The position numbers were made by a program, and so were the translations under genes. This document shows positions 150-28,308 of a stretch of DNA of 34,271 nucleotides, one piece after another. Source of the DNA: a virus. The notes beneath the pieces were generated by a model. It saw only the letters and a list, made by a program, of their open reading frames with translations. It searched no databases and was not told the DNA's origin. The first letter of the stretch is position 1. Each line of letters begins with the position of its first letter. Where the stretch lies: IMG/VR virus record IMGVR_UViG_3300022074_007341, positions 1-34,271 of that record, one strand, 5' to 3'.

Positions 150-470
150 TTAGGCAGCGGAGGAGCCCTTGGAGAGGAGCTCCTGGACTGATTCCCAAGT
201 GATGTCCTTGCGGTCGTAGTGGCTGGCTCCAGCCATGGGGACAAGGCGGAAAAGCCAGCCATGGCCGTTTTTAAGTCTGGGGTCCATGTTGCCAGCACGA
301 AAGCGAGCCATGAGGCGCTTGAAAATGTCGTTTCCGTCCGCGGATGTGACGGGGTATTTGCTCCAATTCTTCTTGTGTTCGTTGTTCATCTCGAGGCGGA
401 ACAAAGGCCGCTCGAGAGGCTTGAGTGATTCGAGGGCTGCGCGGACATCAAGTTTGGTAGTGGTGCTCAT
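150..470 (-). CDS. Hypothetical early protein, 106 aa
   Basis: Not recognised. The frame is open up to 719, but the start is placed at the ATG at 470 (MSTTTKLDV) because the promoter at 503-531 lies just upstream and the longer reading would run through the promoter and the end of the DUF1501 gene. The product is soluble, with no signal peptide or membrane segment, and is rich in K, R, W and F. It ends immediately before the A-rich segment feeding the next promoter at 91-118, so it is probably a one-gene early transcription unit. Confidence 0.7.
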   Translation of the reverse strand: MSTTTKLDVRAALESLKPLERPLFRLEMNNEHKKNWSKYPVTSADGNDIFKRLMARFRAGNMDPRLKNGHGWLFRLVPMAGASHYDRKDITWESVQELLSKGSSAA

Positions 471-502
471 TATGTAGTGTGTAGTTTTTCTGTTACAGAG
501 AC

Positions 503-613: not shown

Positions 614-637
614 AAAGGCTCCTAGGAAAGAGCCTTT
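614..637 (-). other. Hairpin at the DUF1501 stop codon
   Basis: AAAGGCTC (614-621) and GAGCCTTT (630-637) form an 8 bp stem with an 8 nt loop containing the stop codon of the DUF1501 gene. No U-tract follows on the minus strand, so it is not a standard intrinsic terminator. It may protect or process the 3' end of the late transcript. Confidence 0.4.
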
Positions 638-1824
638 GCGATTGGCTTGCCGTGGTCAGCCACGCGGAATGGACGGCCAGTGGTTGAAAAGTGGGACTGC
701 TCGATGTCCAGGCCTGCAAGGTGAGCGATTGTTGCGTTCACATCTGTGATCGAATGCTTTTCGCTGATAACCTTTGTTGCCTGCTCATTTGTTTCTCCCA
801 CTGCCACACCACCGTTGATACCAGCTCCAAGAAGGAGTGCTGAGTAAGCCTGTGGGTAATGATCCCGGCCGGTGTTTACGTTGATCTTTGGTGTGCGACC
901 AAATTCGGTTACAACGGCAATAAGAGTGGAATCTAGTAATCCCTCAGCTTCGAGATCCAGGACCAAAGCGCTTAGTGCGTTGTCAACTTCATTAAGTTTG
1001 TTGTCGAGCTTTTCAAAGTTCTCAGTGTGAGTGTCCCAGCCTCCGTTGTTGACCTCAATGAATCGAACATCGCCGCGGACAAGACGTTTGGCAAGAAGAA
1101 GACCTTGACCAAGACGAGTGCTTCCGTACCGTTCCCGCTTGGCTGCGGGCTCACGTGTTATGTCAAAAAGCTCAAGGTCTTTTGACTGGAGGAATCGAAC
1201 TGTGTTGTCATAAAAGTCATTGTACTGAGAAGCAATTGGTGATTCGATCTTTGAGTTAACCTGGCGGAGTAAATCCATGCGCTCAGCAAGCTTTGAGTCC
1301 GCACTCGAATTACGAAGACCAGCATTTGGATCCACAATGGGAAGAGGCGATTTAATCTTGGGAAGGAATCCACTTCCTGGATGTGAGCTTGCACCATTGA
1401 TAAGAACAAAGTCTGGAATGGTTGTGTCGCGATTGGACAGGTGTGAAACCCAGCTTCCAAGAGATGGGTGAGTGATCGTTGCAAGTTGCTTAAACGATGT
1501 TCTGTTCAAATACTGAGCCTGTCTGTGTGCTCCGGTTTTTGATGTAAGCGATCGAACAACAGCTGCGTGGTGCATGACCTGAGCAAGCTTCGGAAGGCGA
1601 TGGCCAATTTGAAAGTCGCCTGATGTTGCGATGCCGGTTGTGTCTCCAGCAACTTCTTTGTCCTTTTTAGGATCAAAAGAATCGATGTGACTTGCACCAC
1701 CATCGAGAGCGATGTAGATAACATTCTTGGCTTTGGTTTCTTGTGTGGGTTGTGCGTTTACAACGTTTACCCCGTATGTAGCGGCTGCTAGGCCTGCGAT
1801 GAATGAGCGTCTGTCTGTTTCCAT
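622..1824 (-). CDS. DUF1501-family exported protein (alkaline-phosphatase/sulfatase-like fold)
   Basis: 400 aa, apparently complete. The N-terminus METDRRSFIAGLAAA resembles a twin-arginine signal, as in bacterial DUF1501 proteins. Family landmarks are present: the GGASHIDSFDPK segment (42-53), NNGGWDTHTENF (259-270), TEFGRTP (306-312) and GRDHYP (319-324). DUF1501 belongs to the alkaline phosphatase/sulfatase superfamily; its substrate is generally unknown. The gene starts 10 nt after the stop of the DUF1549/DUF1553 gene, so the two form one late operon. Such pairs are typical of Planctomycetes and Verrucomicrobia chromosomes and unexpected in a T4-like virus. Family assignment is firm; role in infection is unknown. 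Confidence 0.9.
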   Translation of the reverse strand: METDRRSFIAGLAAATYGVNVVNAQPTQETKAKNVIYIALDGGASHIDSFDPKKDKEVAGDTTGIATSGDFQIGHRLPKLAQVMHHAAVVRSLTSKTGAHRQAQYLNRTSFKQLATITHPSLGSWVSHLSNRDTTIPDFVLINGASSHPGSGFLPKIKSPLPIVDPNAGLRNSSADSKLAERMDLLRQVNSKIESPIASQYNDFYDNTVRFLQSKDLELFDITREPAAKRERYGSTRLGQGLLLAKRLVRGDVRFIEVNNGGWDTHTENFEKLDNKLNEVDNALSALVLDLEAEGLLDSTLIAVVTEFGRTPKINVNTGRDHYPQAYSALLLGAGINGGVAVGETNEQATKVISEKHSITDVNATIAHLAGLDIEQSHFSTTGRPFRVADHGKPIAKALS

Positions 1825-1834
1825 GTTCTTTTTT

Positions 1835-3574
1835 CTATATAATAAATTTAAATTCGTGGCTGTTTAAAAGTATCCAAACGATGTCTTCGAATGGAACGTC
1901 CATCAGTAATTCAACCTCTTCTTGGGTTGGTAGCCGGCTGATGTATGTTGCAAAAAGGTATTCAATTGCCATGTCCTTGTTCCAGTCAATCAGTTTTTCC
2001 ATGACTTGGTTTTCTTCGTCCATGAGACCCTTTGTGAGCGGGCCGTTCATGAGTGTAAGGATCTGTGTTATGTTGGCGTCTTCATTACCCGTTTCAATTA
2101 GGTTTCGATCGGATCGACCAAACTCCAGCATGAAGTTTTCCAGCGCACCTTCAAAGATGTTGGAGGATCGAATCATCATCTGCCGACCCATTCGTGGCGC
2201 ACCGTCGTAAAAAAGACGTTGTAATTTCTGCCACTCTTCATAAGCAACAAGAGCTGTTTTCGAATTAACACTTGAAGGATTGCGGAAAAGCTCTCGGTAG
2301 GTGTCGGTGAGATCCTTTGGTTGCCAAGCATCAACGTTGCCGGTGTGAAGCGTAACAATTGAATCCCAAAGCTGAGCTGATGTCATGCGTCGCATTTTTG
2401 GTCCTCGAAACTCGCCCTTGTCGTCTGACTGCGCTGAGTAAAACCGTGTGCTGTACAGTATGCGATTAAAAGCCCGTGTGTTGTAATCCAGGTCCTTTAT
2501 AAGCTGTGTTAGGTACTCAACAAGTTCGTCGTTGCGTGTGCTTCTCAGATCATCAAAGGTACTGATGTCATTTAAGTTGTGAATAAGCTTGAATCCAAAA
2601 GCCTTGTACCAAAGACGGTTAACAATGTTTGTGGCAAAGGTTGGATGGCTGTCGTCTGTGAACCACTCAGCAAAGTCTTGTGTTAGTGTTCCACGTTCTT
2701 TACCCTCACGCAGCACTTTGCCAATTGGGGTGCGAGCTTCAACGGTGTCGTAAGGATCAGCGTCGCTGTACTTGTAATCGTGTGGAAGCTTTAAAAGCTT
2801 TTTGGGATCGTATGTGATTGTGTTGCGGTATCCTCCAACCGCCCACCATTGGCCGAGCCTGTTAATAGCTCCGCGGGTTTCACCGTTTGCATCAGAAGCC
2901 CGAGCTTCATTGCGAAGGTCTCCGTAAATGGAACGCTCCTTTGCAAGACCCCGTGTGTTTAGCGTGGAAAAGAAAGCGGAGATGTTGTAGTAATCCATTT
3001 GTGTCCAATCATCAAACGGATGATCGTGACACTGAGCACAGGAGATGTTTGTTCCAGCAAGAGCTGTGAATGTGTTTGCAACGTTGTCAAGTAGCATGCC
3101 TTCGTCTCGAAGGTAATACGCAACCGCTGGGTTTGTGTAAATGGTTCCTTGAGCAGTTAGCAGGTCCCGGACGAATTTGTCGTAAGGGGTGTTAGCCGCA
3201 ATTTGATTTTTAATCCAAAAGATGTATGATTCTGCAGGAACGTTGTTAACAACCCTTCGTTTAACACGAAGAAGGTCTGCGTAAAAGTTAAACATAGACT
3301 CTACATAACCTTGTGACGAAACAAGCTTTTCGATAAGCGCTGCTTTGTCCGGATCGCGAATAAACATTTCTCTCTCGTCAAACGTTGGTATCCTTCCAAC
3401 AATATCCAAGTAAGCTCTGCGAACAAACACTTCATTTGAAGCGGGTTTCGGCATTTGGATTTGCTTTTTACGGAGATCGGCCGCGATAAGTTGGTCGATC
3501 TTAAGACTGGGCGAAGCTGTTGCCCAGGCATGACAAGAGAAAAGAACCATAGCGGGGATGATTAATCTCTTCAT
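1835..3574 (-). CDS. DUF1549/DUF1553 exported protein with one CxxCH motif
   Basis: 579 aa from the ATG at 3574. An in-frame ATG at 3589 would add five residues but lies inside the late box at 3580-3587. The N-terminus (MKRLIIPAMVLFSCHAWA) is a signal peptide with likely cleavage after AWA. The first half matches DUF1549: RRAYLDIVGRIPT near residue 52-64 and CAQCHDHPFDDWTQ near 179-192, whose CxxCH could bind c-type haem. The second half matches DUF1553 (FATNIVNRLWYKAFG, then the RRMTSAQLWDSI segment). There is no separate N-terminal cytochrome domain, unlike many planctomycete homologues. It is followed by DUF1501. Function is unknown in all hosts; export to the periplasm is inferred. Confidence 0.9.
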   Translation of the reverse strand: MKRLIIPAMVLFSCHAWATASPSLKIDQLIAADLRKKQIQMPKPASNEVFVRRAYLDIVGRIPTFDEREMFIRDPDKAALIEKLVSSQGYVESMFNFYADLLRVKRRVVNNVPAESYIFWIKNQIAANTPYDKFVRDLLTAQGTIYTNPAVAYYLRDEGMLLDNVANTFTALAGTNISCAQCHDHPFDDWTQMDYYNISAFFSTLNTRGLAKERSIYGDLRNEARASDANGETRGAINRLGQWWAVGGYRNTITYDPKKLLKLPHDYKYSDADPYDTVEARTPIGKVLREGKERGTLTQDFAEWFTDDSHPTFATNIVNRLWYKAFGFKLIHNLNDISTFDDLRSTRNDELVEYLTQLIKDLDYNTRAFNRILYSTRFYSAQSDDKGEFRGPKMRRMTSAQLWDSIVTLHTGNVDAWQPKDLTDTYRELFRNPSSVNSKTALVAYEEWQKLQRLFYDGAPRMGRQMMIRSSNIFEGALENFMLEFGRSDRNLIETGNEDANITQILTLMNGPLTKGLMDEENQVMEKLIDWNKDMAIEYLFATYISRLPTQEEVELLMDVPFEDIVWILLNSHEFKFII

Positions 3575-3579
3575 GGTTA

Positions 3580-3587
3580 TATTTATC
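3580..3587 (-). promoter_or_regulatory. T4-type late promoter box (GATAAATA)
   Basis: Minus-strand GATAAATA, one base from the T4 late consensus TATAAATA, with exactly 5 nt (TAACC) before the ATG at 3574. T4 late transcription starts 6 nt after the box, so the A of ATG would be +1. It would drive the DUF1549/DUF1501 operon. Confidence 0.6.
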
Positions 3588-3617
3588 ATTTTAAATTTCT
3601 CAGTTGTAATTAATTTC

Positions 3618-4223: not shown

Positions 4224-4231
4224 GATAAATA
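4224..4231 (+). promoter_or_regulatory. T4-type late promoter box (GATAAATA)
   Basis: GATAAATA with 5 nt (ACTGT) to the ATG of the amidase at 4237. It overlaps the region just after the stop of the ParB-like gene, so the lysis enzyme can be transcribed separately. It argues against the in-frame upstream TTG at 4222 as the start. Confidence 0.6.
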
Positions 4232-4236
4232 ACTGT

Positions 4237-4872
4237 ATGAAATTCAACGGAAAAACCGGAATCGTAAGAGAAGTCCAGGCCAAGCTTGGTCTCAAGGCCG
4301 ACGGAATTGATGGACCCAAAACCTGGAAGATGATTTGGGAAAACCTAATTCACGAAGGCAAGGGCGAACCAGAAAAACCTGAACCGCCAGTCGACACCAT
4401 ACAGGAAGACGACTACACCGAGGTTTTTAAATCATCACCCAACCAAAGCGGAAGTATCTCGCCAAAGTACATTGTTCTTCATCACAGTGCTGGAAGTCAT
4501 GATGGAACTCGTTCTTGGATCCTTAATTCCAGAAGCAAGGTTTCCTATCACTACCTCATTGCTGCTGACGGATCACGAACACAATTTGTTTCCGACACCA
4601 AAAAGGCTTGGCACGCTGGATCAAGTTCTTGGGCAGGTCTTTCTGGACTAAACAGTCACAGCATCGGCATTTCTTTTTACGGAGACACAAACACACGAAC
4701 ACCATCCGCAGCAGAGATTGATTCATGCGCTAAAAAGTGTGTTTATCTCATGACAAAATTCGGACTGGATGAAAGCAAAATCCTAACCCACGAACAAGTT
4801 TCTCCAGGCCGGAAAAACGACTGTTCTAAAGAAACACACCAACTGGTACTAAAGAGAATTAAGCAATTATGA
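4237..4872 (+). CDS. Endolysin: N-acetylmuramoyl-L-alanine amidase with peptidoglycan-binding domain
   Basis: 211 aa. Residues 1-37 form a short peptidoglycan-binding repeat (VQAKLGLKADGIDGPKTW). After a Pro/Glu linker (43-60), residues 77-205 are an Amidase_2/T7-lysozyme-type domain: YIVLHHSAG (H82 region), SYHYLI, AWHAG, NSHSIGISFYGD, and THEQVSPGRKNDC giving H185, K193 and C196 as zinc/catalytic residues. It cleaves the amide between MurNAc and L-Ala in peptidoglycan. There is no signal peptide, so a holin is needed; a holin-like gene lies across the terminator at 5542-5757. The start is set by the late box 5 nt upstream. Its stop overlaps the next gene's start. Confidence 0.88.
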   Translation: MKFNGKTGIVREVQAKLGLKADGIDGPKTWKMIWENLIHEGKGEPEKPEPPVDTIQEDDYTEVFKSSPNQSGSISPKYIVLHHSAGSHDGTRSWILNSRSKVSYHYLIAADGSRTQFVSDTKKAWHAGSSSWAGLSGLNSHSIGISFYGDTNTRTPSAAEIDSCAKKCVYLMTKFGLDESKILTHEQVSPGRKNDCSKETHQLVLKRIKQL

Positions 4873-5875: not shown

Positions 5876-6688
5876 TTATTCATACCTTTGCTTAAGGTGT
5901 TCCCAAGCATGTCCTGCAGAAATCTCTTCCGGAAGCCACTGAGCATAGGCTAGATCGGCTGCCCACTGGGATCGGTCCGGAGTGGGAGGGTTGTTTAGCT
6001 GGGTAAGATCTTTCATTGCAAGGTCCCATACCATGGAGCCATGGTCAAAATTCACAACCGGGGTTCCTGCGATCACAGAATCAACACCGGAGTTACTGTT
6101 GATGGTAACGGTCACTGCCGCACCTCGAACAGCCTCTTCTATGCTGCCGTTAAAAACGCCGTCGGCCACGATGTTACCCCAGGTTCCCTTTCGCACCGGG
6201 TGATCCTTTACAAGCACAGGAAGGTCACTTGCCTTCATGCATTCGTTGGCTAACTTCTGGTAATTAACTGGGAAATTGCGAATGGAGTTGTCACCTCTTA
6301 TCTGCAGTGTGAGAAGGATGTAATCACCCTTTGTGTTCCATGGTTGAATTCGCCCATCATCGAAATGCTTTTTCCACCGATCGTCGGGACTGTTTTTGTT
6401 GTAGTATTCCCCTCGGTTGTTGAGACCGTTGTATCCAAGTGAGATCCATTCGTACCTGTCCTCGAAGTAAGCGCGCTCAGTTAGAATAAAGTCCTTTCCT
6501 GATTCGCCTCGAACATCTCTTGCCTGCCTCATGCCCCACACAAGAACAAGATCCGAATCGGTGTCTAGAGCAATGTTGGTGCTTATCTCTCCCTTGATCC
6601 CGTGGCGTTTAAGGCCTTCACAAAATATTTCTGCCGCCGTCACCTGATGCTTGGGACGGTTTTTTCTAACGTAACAGGTGATCTTCAT
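5876..6688 (-). CDS. Glycosyltransferase-like protein (GT-B-like, polysaccharide type)
   Basis: 270 aa, last gene of the AT-rich late operon. The segments LVLVWGMRQARDV, LPVLVKDHPVRKGTW, VTINSNSGVDSVIAGTPVV and FDHGSMVWDLA resemble the C-terminal nucleotide-sugar half of capsule/CDP-glycerol-type transferases, in which a KxHP segment and an SxxGxxxxxxGxPV segment bind donor. Proteins of this type are found in marine T4-like phages. Acceptor unknown. The start overlaps the stop of the upstream gene (TAATG), implying coupling. Confidence 0.6.
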   Translation of the reverse strand: MKITCYVRKNRPKHQVTAAEIFCEGLKRHGIKGEISTNIALDTDSDLVLVWGMRQARDVRGESGKDFILTERAYFEDRYEWISLGYNGLNNRGEYYNKNSPDDRWKKHFDDGRIQPWNTKGDYILLTLQIRGDNSIRNFPVNYQKLANECMKASDLPVLVKDHPVRKGTWGNIVADGVFNGSIEEAVRGAAVTVTINSNSGVDSVIAGTPVVNFDHGSMVWDLAMKDLTQLNNPPTPDRSQWAADLAYAQWLPEEISAGHAWEHLKQRYE

Positions 6689-7212
6689 TATTTCTGAAAA
6701 AGAGGTTTATTGTGAACCACATCAACGGAATCGGTAACTTCTATCATGTTCATTTGGTTTTTTAGTTTTCTGTGTGTTTTAGAAAAGGCGTTGTGATCTT
6801 GAGGAGAGGTCTTTAAATTTTTTTGCCAAGATTTTAAAAAGTCAAATGTATTGGGCGTGCTATTAAACCATATCCACCCCACTGAAATTTTATTCGAATA
6901 ATATTTAGGGACATTAGAAAAATATCCAATATCGCAGTCAACCGGAATGTGATTTATTTTTTCTACGTAGCAATCAACGTCCAACCATAAACACGTATCG
7001 GTTTCTTTTAACGCGGTTTCTATTACGTATGGTTTCCATTTACAATTTGAGAAATGTTGGGTTTTAAATACCTCTTGCGGTTTACACACCCAGGGCTTTT
7101 TTTCTTCAAGGTGATAACCGACGCCCAACGAATTGGCGTTATCAATAAGTCTTTTTGCGTATTTGGAATACTTCTTTGATGAATCATCACAATAAAAACT
7201 AACAATTTTCAT
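6688..7212 (-). CDS. Glycosyltransferase-like protein with DxD motif
   Basis: 174 aa from the ATG at 7212 (MKIVSFYCDD). An ATG five codons upstream is possible but lies deeper in the preceding gene. CLWLDVDCYV (about 94-103) contains a DxD-type metal/nucleotide-sugar site preceded by hydrophobic residues, as in GT-A fold enzymes, and CKWKPYVIETAL fits the helix before it. At under 180 aa it is shorter than most full enzymes. It is in the middle of the methyltransferase/sulfotransferase/glycosyltransferase operon and overlaps its neighbour by 14 nt. Confidence 0.6.
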   Translation of the reverse strand: MKIVSFYCDDSSKKYSKYAKRLIDNANSLGVGYHLEEKKPWVCKPQEVFKTQHFSNCKWKPYVIETALKETDTCLWLDVDCYVEKINHIPVDCDIGYFSNVPKYYSNKISVGWIWFNSTPNTFDFLKSWQKNLKTSPQDHNAFSKTHRKLKNQMNMIEVTDSVDVVHNKPLFQK

Positions 7213-7774
7213 AATTGAATACCTCAAAGTCTTTCTTATATTTACTGTGCACTATTTCTGCCAATTCTTTATTATAATATTCTGTATAGTGCTTGTGGTT
7301 TGTTTTGTTTTTGTGTGATAGGGTTATTTTTTTGCCAATAACTTTATTGGTAACGTATGACCAATCTTCAGATAAGTTTTCGAATCTTCCTACAAAATTT
7401 ACTTTGATACTACCATCATACGTAATGTGTAAATGCTGAGGCTTTAACAGAACGTCGTCTTCTATATTGGCATCGTTTAACCAGTGGACAAACGTGCTAA
7501 AATCCTCACAATGTTCTTGTCTCAATTCGTCGTGCCATTTTTTAAAAACGTATTTTTCGCGTTTAACCCAAAAGTAAGATGATAGCAACCTATCAAGAGG
7601 ATTTCTTACAAACGTCCAAGAAAAATAATCTTCACGCCAGGTATCATTTTCAATGAAGTCCTTTACAGTAGTGTGACATTTATTACCAACCCACTTTTCG
7701 GATTGCATCGAATTACCCGCACATTTGGGAATATGAATAAATGAGTGTTTGTGTTTATCGTTTATCACACTCAT
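7199..7774 (-). CDS. Carbohydrate sulfotransferase (Sulfotransfer_2-like)
   Basis: 191 aa. FIHIPKCAGNSMQ (12-24) is the 5'-phosphosulfate loop that binds PAPS, and FVRNPLDRLLSSYF (about 55-68) is the 3'-phosphate site of the family; both are intact. The enzyme class moves sulfate from PAPS to sugar hydroxyls. It starts in an ATGA overlap with the FkbM gene and ends 14 nt inside the next gene. The region is visibly AT-richer than flanking early genes, suggesting transfer. Acceptor unknown: phage glycans or host surface glycans are both possible. Confidence 0.85.
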   Translation of the reverse strand: MSVINDKHKHSFIHIPKCAGNSMQSEKWVGNKCHTTVKDFIENDTWREDYFSWTFVRNPLDRLLSSYFWVKREKYVFKKWHDELRQEHCEDFSTFVHWLNDANIEDDVLLKPQHLHITYDGSIKVNFVGRFENLSEDWSYVTNKVIGKKITLSHKNKTNHKHYTEYYNKELAEIVHSKYKKDFEVFNYENC

Positions 7775-8388
7775 TTCTTTTCAAAAATAATGTTGTATTG
7801 GTGTTTATATTCCCTGTCTCTAGCAATCGGTGTGAATCCTTTTGATCGCATAAAGCTTATAATATCAGAATCTAATTTTTGATTTACCCAATATTTTATT
7901 TCTTCAACTTCGATAAAAACATATTTAGTTTTTTCTAAAATGGATTGCGCACCCTCTAAAACTTCGTAACCAACACCCTCTGCATCAATCCATAAACCAG
8001 CAGATGTGATACCAGTATCATATTCGTCAAGTTTGGAGCATTTAACCGACACATCCGTGTATCCCTTTCTAGGGGATTTTGTTCGATTTAGTATTGAATT
8101 ATTACCTTCGGTTTCTCTGCCATTTTGGATTTTAAAGGAAAGGGGCTTATTTGTATTTGAAATAGCGGAGTGGATAAAATTGATGCCGGCAGCCTCTATT
8201 GATTCTTTAAATTTTTTATAGTTATGCGGGTTCGCCTCAAAGGCGGTAATATCGCAATCAAATTCTTTTAAAAGCCTTTTAGAAAATTCAGCGCTAAAGC
8301 ATCCTATTTCATAAAAATGAGAAGGACGATTTTCTTTAATCTTAGTAAGAAAAAAATCGACTAATTCTTTTACACCGTACTCTTTCAT
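7771..8388 (-). CDS. FkbM-family SAM-dependent methyltransferase
   Basis: 205 aa. The SAM-binding start is seen in FYEIGCFSAEFSKRLL (26-41, motif I variant ExGxxxG), then ITAFEANPHNYKKFK (motif II acid, E-x-N-P) and the FkbM hallmark LWIDAEGVGYEVLEGA (132-147, usually DVEGxE). It O-methylates sugars or related hydroxyls in known members. It is the first gene of a four-gene late operon behind TATAAATA at 8398-8405. Confidence 0.85.
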   Translation of the reverse strand: MKEYGVKELVDFFLTKIKENRPSHFYEIGCFSAEFSKRLLKEFDCDITAFEANPHNYKKFKESIEAAGINFIHSAISNTNKPLSFKIQNGRETEGNNSILNRTKSPRKGYTDVSVKCSKLDEYDTGITSAGLWIDAEGVGYEVLEGAQSILEKTKYVFIEVEEIKYWVNQKLDSDIISFMRSKGFTPIARDREYKHQYNIIFEKK

Positions 8389-8445: not shown

Positions 8446-8523
<78 letters not shown>

Positions 8524-21861: not shown

Positions 21862-24800
21862 CTAGCTTAATCCTGAAATTGATACATTCTCGATGTCGTT
21901 TGAAGCCATACTGTTGAACTGTAACTTCGTGTAGTTCTGTTCTCCGGGCTGAATGTAGTTTCGAACGCCATTAGAAAAGCTGTCGCTGCTGCCATCACCC
22001 ATTAGCCACACTTGAGTAGCATATGCTGGTTGTGTATCACCGATTTGGAAGTTAGAATAGTTAGATGTTGTATTAGGATATCTGTAAGTCTCCCCTACTT
22101 TATAGTCAGCAACCCAACCAACAGGGTCAGTAATCATCTTCAGGATTTCAGCATCATCTGGTATGGTATCATTTCTCTTAAGAGTTGTTGTAACCATACT
22201 AGCTACTTTACCATGAAAGTTTCTATTACCACCACGTCCGCCGATAGTGAAATCCCCCGTTATACTTAAATCTGTACGAGCATTGTTTCCACCATTAGTC
22301 CAGTTAGCAGCTGTTGATTTATTATCAGCTAATGCAGGAGCATAATCCCAAACTCCAGAAATTATTCTTATGTCAAAAGCATCAGCTAAATTAGCATCGG
22401 TTAAATTACCGTAGTTAAATCTACCACCTTTGAAAGCGATATAAACTCCGTACCATTTACTAGCATTGGTTTGTAGATAGTTATCAATCAAACACTCATT
22501 GTTATTAGAGCCTCTTCCCCATCCAAAGTATAACTCCCTGGATGCAGTTAGTCTTAGATAAATGTTATCGTTATTGCTACTAGCACCTTCACCCATATTC
22601 CAAATATGTTGGTTACTATTGTTACCATCAATTCTGAATACTATAGAAGTTGCCCATGGGAAAGAATATCCATTATCAGCAGTTTTAGTACTATCAGGGT
22701 TGTTAGCTACAGCAACTCCATAGCCACCCAGTCTAAGAGGTTGTGCTTGAGTAATAGGATTAACTTGTTTTAAGTGTTCATTACCACCACTAAAGTCAAT
22801 CGCCTTAGTCCAATTAGTTGCATTTGTTGTTGGTGGAGCAGGCACCGATATTTCAGATAAACCTGTCCAATCAATCTCATTACCATCAATAGCATTGCCA
22901 TTAAAAGTCCAGAAGGACATTACAACATCAAGAGGAGTAGTAACACTAGCGTATCCTGAGTTATCGCCACTCTGACCTTTATAAGCATTCCAGTTACCAT
23001 AAGTTACAGTTGATTCGTCACCAGAAGTAATGCCTAAGTTTCCATTACGTCCAAAGGCTAATCTGATGTTATTACCAGAATTTGTTACTTCAAGGAAAGC
23101 ACACGTTGTGTTCATTAAGGATGTGGTGTTCAGATACATGCTGTTTCCTACAATACCATTAGCAACAGGGTACATGGTAAGACTTGTACCACTGCTATTA
23201 AATATACCTACAATGTAGCTATTACCTGCGAAAGTAAGACCTGATGCAGCAGCACCATTACTGTTTACTTGCTTGGTATTTGACCAGTTACTACCTTTAA
23301 GTCCGATTGCAAAGATAGTATTGTTGCTTTTAACTTCACCAATGAAATCAGTGAAGAAAGCATTATCTAATACAAGTCTTTCGCCTGCGCCTAATGTCTC
23401 ATCAAGACTAATCCAACCATGGTCACCCGAGTCCATTACATTTGAGCCAGTCTGGTTAGCGCTTGGACCTTCTAAGTCAATACCGGTCGGATTAGCGCTG
23501 TAAGTTGAACCAGCAACGGTCATTGGTACTGTAGCAGTAGCAGCCCCATCACCATCAGTCCAAACAAGGCTAATAGGCGGAACGTCTGCTGGTACAACAA
23601 ACTCGAGGTAAGCGCCAGCACTTCCAACAGTACCATTTAGAGTAACACCAGTAGTATAAGCATTGCCATTAGCATCAACAACCATTAAGGTGTCATTTGA
23701 CTCAACAGAGGCATGATCTAAGTAGAACTTGTAAGTGCTACCAGCATTAAATGTTACCGTGTTGAAGTCGAGTATTGTGCTACCTCCGTCTTGGGTAAAC
23801 TTAATACCACTTGCTTGTTCAACAATAGTGAATTCGTTTCCGGCCAGGTCAGCCAATACATTAATAGTAATTGTTCCTTGAACAGAACCAAAGCTATTTG
23901 CTTTAGTAACGTTAATAACATGAGTAACAGAGTTACCAGCGCCATTAGTAATGTCTTCAGCTGTACCAATAATAGCGTAGCCGTTGTCAGCATAACCATT
24001 AGGAACGTTGGTCACATTAAATGTGTCGGTCATTCCAGCAGCCTTGTACTGAATGTTAATAGCACTACCTTCTTGTACGTTGTAGGTGATATTACTAAAC
24101 GTTGGCAAGTAGTTGGCGTCCTCTCCTGTTGGGATTTCGTTCCAAACAACGTTAATGCTGTTACCGAATATTCCGCCTTGAGGTGCTGCCGAACCAGCAT
24201 GGACTCCAGATGTATCTGGCATGTACCATGTGTTGCTTCCGCCATTGTAGGTATCATCCGCAAATGTATGGGTGTGGCTTGTACCACTTCCTCCATCTTC
24301 TATGGAATCAATGTAATTAGCCTCCGCTTCACTTGCGAAAAGAGGGTAATAGAATTCCCCATCTGGGCTTTCAATGTAATACCAACCTGTTAGGGAAGCG
24401 CCTTCTTCTTCGGCGCTCATGTCATACTTAACCAATTCGGGGATTCTATCAGCGGTATGACTGTTCTCATTAGCTCCCAAAAAGATATTAAAAGCAGAAC
24501 CATCAAGGTCTACCTTCTTAGTGGCAATTAGTTCATTATTGGTTTCGTGCCACATCTCCAAGGAGTTGTCACTGTTGTACCTGAATGAAATTAGACCCAG
24601 ATTATTATTACCAGCGTCGATACTTGAATCATATCCAATGTCGCTTCTGTCTCCATTTGGATCATAGGAATTGAGAGCGCTCGTGTTCCAAGTCCAATTA
24701 CTTTCAGAGGCTCCGATTTCTTTTATTACCTCGGATGTGTTGTAGAAGAAGCCATCTTCAAGTGTGTCTTCAGCGCTTGCAACGTTGCTAGATGCTCCGG

Positions 24801-27800
24801 TGTATCCGAATCCGATTTTCTCAGAACGGCCAAAGTAGTTGAAGTTCAGAGTTATCTTTTCTCCGGGGCTTACTGAGATCCTGCTTTTAATAACGGTGGA
24901 CTCTTCTAATCCGTTGCTCCATTCTCCTCCTTGAGAGTTGTCTTGGTCGTGAACGATCTCCCATGATTCGGTTCTTTCTGTGAATACTGGAAAGCTTCCT
25001 TCATTAAAGGAAGACCACTGAATCATAACTGAAGAACCAGCTATTGTGGAGTTGGACTTACCGATTAAACTGTAACCGCCGTTAACTACTTCATAGAGAT
25101 ATAGGTAATTGTCTTGACCGAAGCGAAGAGCAAGCTGACCGTTGGGCATTCCGTAGTAACCTGCGAATGATCCGCTTGTCTCAATTGTCACTCCGCTCGA
25201 ATCAACTTGGCTGAATCTTGTATTGGTACCTGCGTAAGCAAATCCAACCGTCCAATTGGAGGGCTGAAGCGCATCCGAACCGGACTGTGCGGTTTCAGCT
25301 GCACCCCAAACACCTATCATGTAATCGTAGGAGGGATTGTGTGTCCAAACAAACTCGTGGCCCTTTTCTAAAGACTCACCGTTATAAAACGGATTGTAGT
25401 TTCTATAGTTGTTTCCAATAGTAGGTGTGGTAATCTGTGTTCCCGCTTCTGCACCGTATGAAACGAACCAGTTGTTACTTATAGCTGGGAGTGATCCCCC
25501 AGACGATTCGTCCCCATTTATTCCGACCTCCGAAACAAGGAACGATTTGTAATTCACAAGGTCCATTTGGAACGCTGCGTTGAGTGTATCATTCGCAGAA
25601 TTTAAATCGTTTCCGGCCTGTGTTCCGTTAACATAAATGTTTCCGAATGTAAGACCTCTCAGTTGAACCTTATCAGAATTGTTTTGGGATATTTGTATTG
25701 TACTTCCAACCACCGTGGAGGTAAGGTCGTTAATAGCGTATCTGTTAATAACATTACCGCCAACACCTTCGTTTAGTGTGATTGATTGTTTTAGTGTGTC
25801 AACCACCACGTCCACGATCGGCACTTGCATAACGTGGTTACTGAAAGGTAACTCGGAGTAGTTACCAGCAAGTGGAGGGTTAATGGCCTTTGTCCCGATT
25901 GATTGGTAGGAGTTATCTCCCAAAGATAATCTAAGATTGGTCACATCAACTTCGCTTAGGTCAATAGCATAGTCTTGACCTATGAATCCAACGTCATCTA
26001 CCTTAATAATGTTCTTATCGTCGTCAGGTAATTGACCAACCGCAGACGTGATAAGAAGTCCAACCTTATCGGAGTTGGATCCAAGTCCTGTGTAGTGAAC
26101 CTGGGTGTCAAGTATCTCTGCGATGAATCTAAAGTCGGGATTTAAACTAATTGAAGTTCCAAGTAGATTGTAAACCTCGTTAATTTGGATTGATGCCTTT
26201 GCGTCTCCGGGGTTTCCGATGCCGTTAAAAGAAGAGCGGTTATTGTCATAAAGACCGCAATCACGAAGTGTGCTGTTAGCTGCGCCCCATGCGCAGAATC
26301 CTGCGTTCCAGTTTCCGTTAACCTCGTTCTGGCTAAACTTATTATTGATACCGCCAATTACTAAAAGACCGTTGTTGGCATTGTAGGAGGAAGCGTTCAT
26401 CGAAACAGTTACGTTGTGACACCCTCCAAGAGAACCTGCGGCGATGTATATTCCCGACTCGATGTTCTGGGAAGACACGTTTCGAGTTATGAATCCATAG
26501 CCGCCAATACCGCAGTCTTGAACTCTGATACCTCTAAGGTTTTTGCTTACATTGTTTCCAATCACTCGAACTCCGGTTGATTCCTGAATTCTTAAAGCTC
26601 CACCGTTGGAAGCATTGGATCCTGCGTAAAACGCCTGAAGATCCGCGCTGGAAGAATCGTATCCAAGTAAGGCGGTTGTTGTCGAAGGGAGAATTGTATT
26701 AAGAGCTGAACCGTTCCATCCGTTGTTTGTAAAGTCGCAGTTTTCGATCTCAACCTTTGCGGTCTTTTTAGTAAGGATTCCGTATCCTCCCGCGTTGCTG
26801 AATCGTAGATTGCGGAAAGCGTACTCCTTGGAGTTATCTGTTCCGGTTACTTCCAAAACGTTTCCGTTGCTTGCGTCATAAGAAGCATACTGAATGGCTG
26901 AACCATCAGATCCTACAAATGTCAAAGACTTATCGGCGGGAAGTACCAAAGAGGATGTTATGTTAAATACACCGTCCAAAAAGATTGTGTCACCGTCGTT
27001 AGCCGATGCAACCGCTGTAACAACATCACCAAAGGGATAAAGAGCTGAGCCATCCGAAACGCCTCCGGTGTATCCAGCTTTCACCATCACATCGTAAACA
27101 CGAAGTCCGGAGCTGTTAATGTCATTTTGAGTTACTGAGTCAGCAGCAATGTGATCATAGTCTGTTCCATTGAAGACCATAACGTCTCCAACAGCCTTAC
27201 CATTTCCTGGTGTAGCCACTCTGTAGAAATCACCGAGCACATCAGAACCGGTTGGTAATGACGGGGTGTCGGTGTCAGCGTTGTAAGTTCCTTTGTAAAT
27301 CGAGCCTGTGCTCAAAGCATTTACGTCGTCCTTAGTAGCTATTTCTTTGTCTTCAAAAAGACGGTGGAGAACGTTTGTTTGGTATCTTGTGTTGACATCG
27401 TCACCTTCGCAGACAAGTAAAAGACCTTGTCTTGTTTCTTGGTTTCCTATCGTTTCGACCTTTGTAATCGACGCGTGGTTGGTAGACCCAGCTTCAATGT
27501 CAAGTGGGTGAGTAAAGAACCATGTTAAATCCTCGTTAACCGATAAACCCGAGTGATCAAGATGCTGTTGATAAACCAAAGTGCCATCAACGCTCAGTTC
27601 GTAAAGAAGCCGCTGATTAGCAGGAACCTCCTCAGCGACTCTCGTTGTAATTCCCACACCGGAGATATTAAAAGAAAAGAAGTTGTCCCCGTCATAAGGA
27701 ATAGCTGTGTCATTAACGGGTGTTCCGCCAAGTCCTACGGTACTGAAGTCACCAAATAGTCGGGTGGACGGATTAACCAGACCAGCTCCTGCCGCCTGGT

Positions 27801-28308
27801 TCTCAGGAAGAGATTGGTCAAGCATTCTTCCGAACACTGGGAAGTCACTCGTTTCTCGCGTAAGGTCGTCAAAGTAAACGTTTGCTGCACCGGAACTCAT
27901 GCGGTGTTGACCACCTAAGTGAAGAGAAGAAAGTGTTGTCTCAATCGCCTTAACAGCTTTTAGTCTGTCAGTGGTGGGATTGTACTCGAAGTATTCCCCA
28001 ATGGTAGGTCTTGCAAACTCGTTGTTAAGATAAGCAAGTATTTGATCCCTGTCGTAGGAGTAAGGTGCATCTACGAGATTTTCACCCGCTTCGTTTTGAA
28101 CGCGAGTGATTTTTAAACGTTTAAAGAAAACGCGGTGCTCTGTTGTACTTCCGGACTTAAAGAGAACAGTAGATTTAACAATAACCCTGTTGGTTTGTGT
28201 TGGGTGAGCGATGGCTTCAACAGAGCCGATGTCCTTTTGTCCCACCTTTGCACCGTCAAAGGAGACCTTTCCGGTGGATAAATTCGAGTAGATTTTTACT
28301 TGGCCCAT
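21862..28308 (-). CDS. Giant tail fibre / receptor-binding protein, 2148 aa
   Basis: One uninterrupted frame. The N-terminal ~330 residues (MGQVKIYSNLSTGKVSFDGA onward) are likely the attachment part. A short SIYKGTYNADTDTPSLPTGS-type spacer domain follows (about 335-395), then a right-handed parallel beta-helix region (about 430-720, many V-x-N-x and GGYGILTKK/ENCDFTNNG-type turns). The centre has beta-sandwich-like modules, and a C-terminal ConA/LamG-like module (about 1900-2080, SIVFRIDGN, WYGVYIAFKGG, FTIGGRGGNRNFHGKVASM). No signal peptide, no catalytic motif. It binds host surface glycans or proteins by analogy. The part encoded at about 21.9-24.1 kb is AT-richer than the rest, suggesting module exchange. 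Confidence 0.85.
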   Translation of the reverse strand: MGQVKIYSNLSTGKVSFDGAKVGQKDIGSVEAIAHPTQTNRVIVKSTVLFKSGSTTEHRVFFKRLKITRVQNEAGENLVDAPYSYDRDQILAYLNNEFARPTIGEYFEYNPTTDRLKAVKAIETTLSSLHLGGQHRMSSGAANVYFDDLTRETSDFPVFGRMLDQSLPENQAAGAGLVNPSTRLFGDFSTVGLGGTPVNDTAIPYDGDNFFSFNISGVGITTRVAEEVPANQRLLYELSVDGTLVYQQHLDHSGLSVNEDLTWFFTHPLDIEAGSTNHASITKVETIGNQETRQGLLLVCEGDDVNTRYQTNVLHRLFEDKEIATKDDVNALSTGSIYKGTYNADTDTPSLPTGSDVLGDFYRVATPGNGKAVGDVMVFNGTDYDHIAADSVTQNDINSSGLRVYDVMVKAGYTGGVSDGSALYPFGDVVTAVASANDGDTIFLDGVFNITSSLVLPADKSLTFVGSDGSAIQYASYDASNGNVLEVTGTDNSKEYAFRNLRFSNAGGYGILTKKTAKVEIENCDFTNNGWNGSALNTILPSTTTALLGYDSSSADLQAFYAGSNASNGGALRIQESTGVRVIGNNVSKNLRGIRVQDCGIGGYGFITRNVSSQNIESGIYIAAGSLGGCHNVTVSMNASSYNANNGLLVIGGINNKFSQNEVNGNWNAGFCAWGAANSTLRDCGLYDNNRSSFNGIGNPGDAKASIQINEVYNLLGTSISLNPDFRFIAEILDTQVHYTGLGSNSDKVGLLITSAVGQLPDDDKNIIKVDDVGFIGQDYAIDLSEVDVTNLRLSLGDNSYQSIGTKAINPPLAGNYSELPFSNHVMQVPIVDVVVDTLKQSITLNEGVGGNVINRYAINDLTSTVVGSTIQISQNNSDKVQLRGLTFGNIYVNGTQAGNDLNSANDTLNAAFQMDLVNYKSFLVSEVGINGDESSGGSLPAISNNWFVSYGAEAGTQITTPTIGNNYRNYNPFYNGESLEKGHEFVWTHNPSYDYMIGVWGAAETAQSGSDALQPSNWTVGFAYAGTNTRFSQVDSSGVTIETSGSFAGYYGMPNGQLALRFGQDNYLYLYEVVNGGYSLIGKSNSTIAGSSVMIQWSSFNEGSFPVFTERTESWEIVHDQDNSQGGEWSNGLEESTVIKSRISVSPGEKITLNFNYFGRSEKIGFGYTGASSNVASAEDTLEDGFFYNTSEVIKEIGASESNWTWNTSALNSYDPNGDRSDIGYDSSIDAGNNNLGLISFRYNSDNSLEMWHETNNELIATKKVDLDGSAFNIFLGANENSHTADRIPELVKYDMSAEEEGASLTGWYYIESPDGEFYYPLFASEAEANYIDSIEDGGSGTSHTHTFADDTYNGGSNTWYMPDTSGVHAGSAAPQGGIFGNSINVVWNEIPTGEDANYLPTFSNITYNVQEGSAINIQYKAAGMTDTFNVTNVPNGYADNGYAIIGTAEDITNGAGNSVTHVINVTKANSFGSVQGTITINVLADLAGNEFTIVEQASGIKFTQDGGSTILDFNTVTFNAGSTYKFYLDHASVESNDTLMVVDANGNAYTTGVTLNGTVGSAGAYLEFVVPADVPPISLVWTDGDGAATATVPMTVAGSTYSANPTGIDLEGPSANQTGSNVMDSGDHGWISLDETLGAGERLVLDNAFFTDFIGEVKSNNTIFAIGLKGSNWSNTKQVNSNGAAASGLTFAGNSYIVGIFNSSGTSLTMYPVANGIVGNSMYLNTTSLMNTTCAFLEVTNSGNNIRLAFGRNGNLGITSGDESTVTYGNWNAYKGQSGDNSGYASVTTPLDVVMSFWTFNGNAIDGNEIDWTGLSEISVPAPPTTNATNWTKAIDFSGGNEHLKQVNPITQAQPLRLGGYGVAVANNPDSTKTADNGYSFPWATSIVFRIDGNNSNQHIWNMGEGASSNNDNIYLRLTASRELYFGWGRGSNNNECLIDNYLQTNASKWYGVYIAFKGGRFNYGNLTDANLADAFDIRIISGVWDYAPALADNKSTAANWTNGGNNARTDLSITGDFTIGGRGGNRNFHGKVASMVTTTLKRNDTIPDDAEILKMITDPVGWVADYKVGETYRYPNTTSNYSNFQIGDTQPAYATQVWLMGDGSSDSFSNGVRNYIQPGEQNYTKLQFNSMASNDIENVSISGLS

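Follow-up and report, generated by a model that had tools for sequence, protein, structure and literature searches.

What do two exported proteins, from families found mainly in Planctomycetes and Verrucomicrobia, do for a virus? The job of the PSCyt/PSD/DUF1501 families has, to our knowledge, gone without an answer for two decades. The question is raised by IMG/VR record IMGVR_UViG_3300022074_007341, a linear fragment of 34,271 bases without a capsid gene, analysed over its full length and here called the window. Because it holds T4-type RNase H, dNMP kinase, PhoH and a cut ribonucleotide reductase, the window is taken as a fragment of a T4-like phage. This agrees with a reading made earlier from the sequence alone, as does the presence of gp23 on the contigs of pair-bearing relatives. 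Two complete genes, PSCyt2-PSD1 at 1835-3574(-) and DUF1501 at 622-1824(-), are separated by 10 nt, and the sequence-only reading had described both correctly, together with the motifs CAQCHDHPF, TEFGR and GRDHYP. The features on which the argument rests are these:

622..1824 (-), DUF1501 protein of 400 aa with a Tat-type signal and an alkaline-phosphatase-superfamily fold
853..870 (-), GRDHYP motif of DUF1501; H322, found in 82/82 sequences, is a putative metal ligand
895..906 (-), EFGR motif of DUF1501, E307-R310
1027..1041 (-), GWDTH motif of DUF1501; D264 (82/82) and H266 (80/82) are putative metal ligands
1807..1812 (-), Tat twin arginine R5 R6, invariant in 82 aligned DUF1501 proteins
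1835..3574 (-), PSCyt2-PSD1 (DUF1549/DUF1553) protein of 579 aa with a Sec signal peptide and a single CxxCH
3026..3040 (-), CAQCH haem c attachment motif of PSCyt2-PSD1, residues 179-183
3521..3574 (-), predicted Sec signal peptide MKRLIIPAMVLFSCHAWA; the hydrophobic N-terminus is kept in viral relatives
3580..3587 (-), late-type promoter box GATAAATA, 5 nt before the PSCyt2 ATG
4224..4231 (+), late-type box GATAAATA, 5 nt before the endolysin ATG
4237..4872 (+), Amidase_2 endolysin, divergent from the pair (PF01510, 6.1e-26, and endolysin PHROGs)

Elsewhere in the window, a glycan cluster at 5876-8388 (-) comprises capsule-synthesis-like, nucleotide-diphospho-sugar transferase-like, sulfotransferase and FkbM methyltransferase genes; its GC content dips to ~0.335 and it adjoins a tRNA-Asp (8446-8522). 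A 2148-aa protein at 21862-28308 (-) has a right-handed beta-helix and is probably a tail fibre or spike.

The identity of both proteins is secure at the level of families. Scored on the open reading frame 1835-3589(-), the first matches PSCyt2 (DUF1549, PF07583; E 1.3e-39, 136.8 bits against a cut-off of 29.8) and PSD1 (DUF1553, PF07587; E 5.2e-21, 75.6 bits against 28.5), while DUF1501 (PF07394) is matched over 388 of 390 positions (E 3.7e-95, 319.8 bits against 27). These Pfam assignments also answer the concern that profile searches might place the proteins in another fold. The signal peptide claimed earlier for PSCyt2-PSD1 is predicted here too, as a Sec signal, although the start had to be corrected: alignment with 12 viral relatives sets it at ATG 3574, and the alternative ATG, at 3589, runs into the promoter box GATAAATA (3587-3580). 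All 83 aligned PSCyt2-PSD1 proteins, viral and bacterial, have CAQCHD, and this motif with the export signal predicts a haem c protein. By sequence, neither member of the pair has a solved relative. The AF2 model of PSCyt2-PSD1 (pLDDT 91.0) finds no clear match in the PDB; the best hits are so weak (Foldseek E 0.24; VIA Z 5.4, a phycobilisome linker) that no fold family is claimed.

The DUF1501 model (pLDDT 91.6) is more informative and has the alkaline phosphatase superfamily fold (best Foldseek E 4e-7). Its best solved match is PafA (VIA Z 20.8 over 275 residues, rmsd 4.0), and comparisons with PafA, NPP and sulfatases give Z values of 18-21. The earlier suggestion of a Tat-like N-terminus is supported by the invariant twin arginine. 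In the alignment D264, H266, E307, H322, H100 and D48 are conserved, position 41 is variable, and F308 occupies the place where a histidine is expected for a canonical two-metal site. The predicted metal site is thus canonical in part only, and hydrolysis by DUF1501 is putative.

The pair belongs to a sizeable viral family. A first scan of IMG/VR with a viral alignment yielded 22 viral contigs, and a second scan with mixed viral and bacterial alignments located PSCyt2-PSD1 on 75 stretches (73 loci) and DUF1501 on 162. In all, more than 70 IMG/VR contigs carry PSCyt2-PSD1, with DUF1501 adjacent in nearly all loci uncut by a contig end. Seven contigs of the first set also carry T4 gp23, and so do nine of the second, one of which (L169) has DUF1501 only; the 15 records with both gp23 and the pair reach 224,703 bp. 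In one relative (L114) gp15 and gp20 come immediately after the pair, and in another (L101) a baseplate wedge gene lies ~2 kb away. The sequence-only reading had named a misassembly at 3.6 kb as a possible refutation; this is ruled out by the amidase/small-ORF/pair junction of the window, which is repeated in two other metagenomes. An NCLDV origin was considered for the contigs without gp23: a search of them for an NCLDV capsid, a weak test whose control stayed silent, found none, and they hold instead polymerase, helicase, ClpB and tail genes of phage type. Among INPHARED phages there was no PSCyt2-PSD1 and a single weak fragment match to DUF1501.

Variants of the arrangement were also seen. 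A second, distant DUF1501 copy occurs in L116 (8100-9365), L149 (1813-3069), L151, L153, L157, L188 and L104 (12924-14345), and in L149 a weak FMN-reductase-like gene separates that copy from the pair. DUF1501 stands without PSCyt2-PSD1 in the examined stretches of L169, L178, L184-L187 and L189-L191, of which L169 (222 kb) carries gp23.

Where the pair came from was addressed with trees of the viral proteins and 79-80 bacterial relatives from Verrucomicrobiota, Planctomycetota, Lentisphaerota and Acidobacteriota. The first-set viral sequences form one clade nested among PVC sequences for PSCyt2-PSD1 (SH-aLRT 97) and likewise for DUF1501 (support 99), as capture from a PVC bacterium would have it. 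With all viral sequences included, 46, the window's among them, form one clade (support 98) nested in PVC operons, and 30 others fall outside it, some near Opitutia operons. A single viral origin for all copies is rejected (AU p 5e-7), so at least two captures took place. The families had been said to occur as adjacent pairs in PVC bacteria, and DUF1501 does lie directly downstream of PSCyt2-PSD1 in 66 of 80 bacterial loci, which argues that the operon was taken whole. An Opitutales MAG protein (L086, 51% local identity) was considered as the sister group; it clusters with other bacterial sequences and lies on a chromosomal contig. For seven pairs of sequences, dN/dS in both genes is 0.027-0.092, showing strong purifying selection. 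The pair therefore consists of host-derived genes, PVC-nested and under purifying selection, that the phage has kept.

A second, non-T4 lineage of large phages, with records up to ~205 kb (L170, L178, L195, L196, L262, L112), has its own or a borrowed pair. Contigs such as L170, L196, L262 and L112 share a DNA polymerase III alpha gene, ~59-61% identical over its full length to that of L170, and several of the contigs share a ClpB-like gene. L112 and L113 belong here by polymerase and ClpB, yet their pair comes from the window's clade, and the cassette thus also moves between phages. The PSCyt2-PSD1 of L196 is 72-74% identical over ~550 residues to that of an otherwise chromosomal-looking Opitutia MAG contig. 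This likeness points to Verrucomicrobiota as donor of the L196-type pair and, probably, as host of that lineage. For the window's lineage, the origin of the pair suggests a PVC bacterium as host. A search for gp23 in 388 Verrucomicrobiota genomes returned none and, run without a positive control, shows little.

The sequence-only reading also placed the pair under a late-type promoter. By its count in the window alone the box GATAAATA is not beyond chance (2 seen, 1.16 expected); what lends the claim weight is its position in relatives. NATAAATA sits exactly 5 nt before the PSCyt2-PSD1 ATG in 23/23 T4-like members of the inner clade, against 0/79 bacterial genes and 0/30 other viral copies; L114 is a 24th viral copy with the box, 6 nt from the start. 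Across the viral loci, 83 of the 202 NATAAATA boxes followed by an ATG within 40 nt show exactly this 5-nt spacing, and the box also stands ahead of genes for the tail sheath, tail tube, terminase, portal, neck and head protease. Five of the largest T4-like records encode the late sigma factor gp55. From a fixed box shared with virion genes, we predict that the pair is a late gene cassette of a T4-like phage. Places with the box exactly 5 nt (some 6) before the ATG include L118 4753, L123 938 and 1548, and 3574 and 4237 in the window.

The spacing itself may be informative. By annotated starts, most T4 boxes lie 24-35 nt from the start, and those of P-SSM2 15-51 nt. The T4 late box spans -13 to -6, and with a 5-nt gap the +1 would fall on the A of the ATG, which predicts leaderless late mRNAs. 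T4-like phages across this whole group probably make such messages; a possible alternative is that the 5-nt box acts as an A+T-rich translation signal. An early-promoter-like element (TTTACR, spacer, TAAGAT after TATGG) occurs twice on the minus strand of the window, at 88-147 and 503-563. Both copies also hold TTCATTAAAAATGCACTTTTTT on the plus strand, and they precede gene 150-476(-) and a gene running off the window; the pair has no such element.

Each of the 23 T4-like inner-clade loci has a gene for an amidase or phage lysozyme no more than 1,322 nt from the pair, and at least four arrangements are seen. This gene is divergent from the pair in the window, L097 and L098, and convergent and touching it in L099 and L100. 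In seven loci (L101, L104, L105, L129, L130, L131, L176) the pair follows, after a gap of 2-32 nt, a lysozyme gene of the same orientation, and in L102, L103 and L106-L111 the pair stands between an amidase and a lysozyme gene. That the partners stay the same while the arrangement differs suggests a functional link with the lysis genes, common ancestry accounting for part of it. The link is not universal: in the outer T4-like group (L143, L149-L164, others) no neighbour of the pair matches the amidase or lysozyme profiles, the genes there being neck/portal or replication genes. By eye, a signal-peptide protein resembling a small outer-membrane barrel (L110 12998-13471 (-)) and a small prepilin-like protein (L102 9247-9477 (+)) also lie beside the pair. 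PADLOC profiles match none of four proteins to known anti-phage defence.

Taken together, these data are most consistent with a role in lysis. We consider it an even call that a PVC operon was captured whole by the ancestor of a broad T4-like group and kept as a late, exported envelope cassette that aids lysis. A more specific version is put forward a little more tentatively: a specialised late module, made up of an exported haem protein and hydrolase and acquired from hosts on at least two occasions, that would open or remodel a PVC-specific envelope during lysis. The pair would be transcribed late in infection from the phage late box. The Sec and cytochrome c maturation systems of the host would make PSCyt2-PSD1 a haem protein, with haem attached in the periplasm, and the host Tat system would export the DUF1501 hydrolase. 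There the two might alter or cleave an anionic glycan of the PVC envelope (a sulfate or phosphate ester) or some other ester in it, and the remodelled polymer would let endolysin or lysozyme finish lysis and release the progeny. The alkaline-phosphatase fold of DUF1501 and the sulfatase and sulfatase-modifying genes close to bacterial operons (PMC5615132) speak for this reading. The earlier idea that the products are exported before lysis fits the retained Sec and Tat signals and the late box; export itself is predicted. The association with lysis genes, the wide spread of the pair among viruses, the fold of DUF1501 and the second capture go beyond that earlier reading.

The sequence-only reading had offered changes to host surface polysaccharide, an envelope redox function and superinfection exclusion as possible roles, and the sequence fits all three alike. 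Two serious rivals compete with this lysis reading. Superinfection exclusion or receptor removal, in which a late exported pair alters surface glycans so that siblings fail to adsorb to the cell or its debris, is unlikely though the better placed of the two. It shares the export signals and the late-type expression signal, and the sulfotransferase, FkbM methyltransferase and glycosyltransferase-like genes of the window suggest that this phage edits glycans. Exclusion genes are often expressed early, however, whereas this pair is late-type, and in the inner clade it stays beside cell-wall hydrolases.

Auxiliary metabolism, where a periplasmic pair would free phosphate, sulfate or sugar from the envelope or from dissolved organic matter for phage DNA synthesis, is somewhat less probable again. 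The alkaline-phosphatase fold of DUF1501 would suit it, and of 58 same-strand neighbours of bacterial operons 7 are sulfatases and 6 sulfatase-modifying enzymes. These counts are in line with the role in carbohydrate breakdown suggested for PSCyt/DUF1501-type operons (PMC5615132), which likewise favours nutrient release. Against this, a promoter common to virion genes is late for nutrient supply, the metal site of DUF1501 is degenerate, and the window's clade retains both partners and not the hydrolase alone.

That the proteins are virion-associated enzymes acting on the envelope at entry is improbable. The pair is late-type and, in the L114/L149 group, has gp15 and gp20 as neighbours, but Sec and Tat signals would remove the proteins from the cytoplasm, where virions assemble, and haem c attachment, which PSCyt2-PSD1 would require, needs the periplasm. 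That the records are chimeric assemblies or mislabelled bacterial contamination, a doubt to which a linear fragment lacking a capsid gene might seem open, has a negligible chance and is already refuted for the family by the recurrence of the junction in independent metagenomes, by gp23 on the contigs of 15 pair-bearing records and by the phage promoter box ahead of the pair.

Phages tend to retain only what pays. With a minimal pair, a late promoter and endolysin or lysozyme genes alongside, the search for function narrows to envelope chemistry late in infection. If the lysis reading is true, the module would be a first functional handle on the PSCyt/PSD/DUF1501 families; its carriers are many large marine and freshwater phages, which offer a route to what the pair does. 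The pair also provides a marker by which phages that infect uncultured PVC bacteria can be recognised.

The nearest known systems are the bacterial PSCyt2-PSD1 and DUF1501 operons of Planctomycetota, Verrucomicrobiota and Lentisphaerota, with the same Pfam families, gene order, export signals and CxxCH. The viral copies differ in forming their own clade, in the phage late box of the inner clade, absent from 79 bacterial genes, in a shorter PSCyt2-PSD1 (~571-615 aa in the window's clade, bacterial open reading frames mostly 613-850 aa) and in having one copy of it seen per phage locus, against many per genome in bacteria. DUF1501 shares its fold and several Asp/His residues with the alkaline phosphatase superfamily (PafA, NPP, sulfatases), at 10-16% identity and with the two-metal ligands partly conserved. 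With T4 late expression the pair-bearing phages have the NATAAATA box and gp55 in common, their 5-nt spacing setting them apart from T4 and P-SSM2. T4-like cyanophages, whose gp23 is ~33% identical to theirs, likewise stably keep host-derived (auxiliary metabolic) genes in aquatic phages; the pair differs from these in its families, its exported proteins, its late box and its physical link to lysis genes. The sequence-only reading knew of no described viral case, and our literature search for PSCyt2-PSD1 and DUF1501 as an exported late phage pair found none; the DUF1501 that PMC5418858 reports for a Pseudomonas phage amounts to a weak CDD match in a 61-aa protein and is not this pair. Host-derived genes in T4-like phages are known, and what appears to be new is the occurrence of these families as an exported, predicted late pair.
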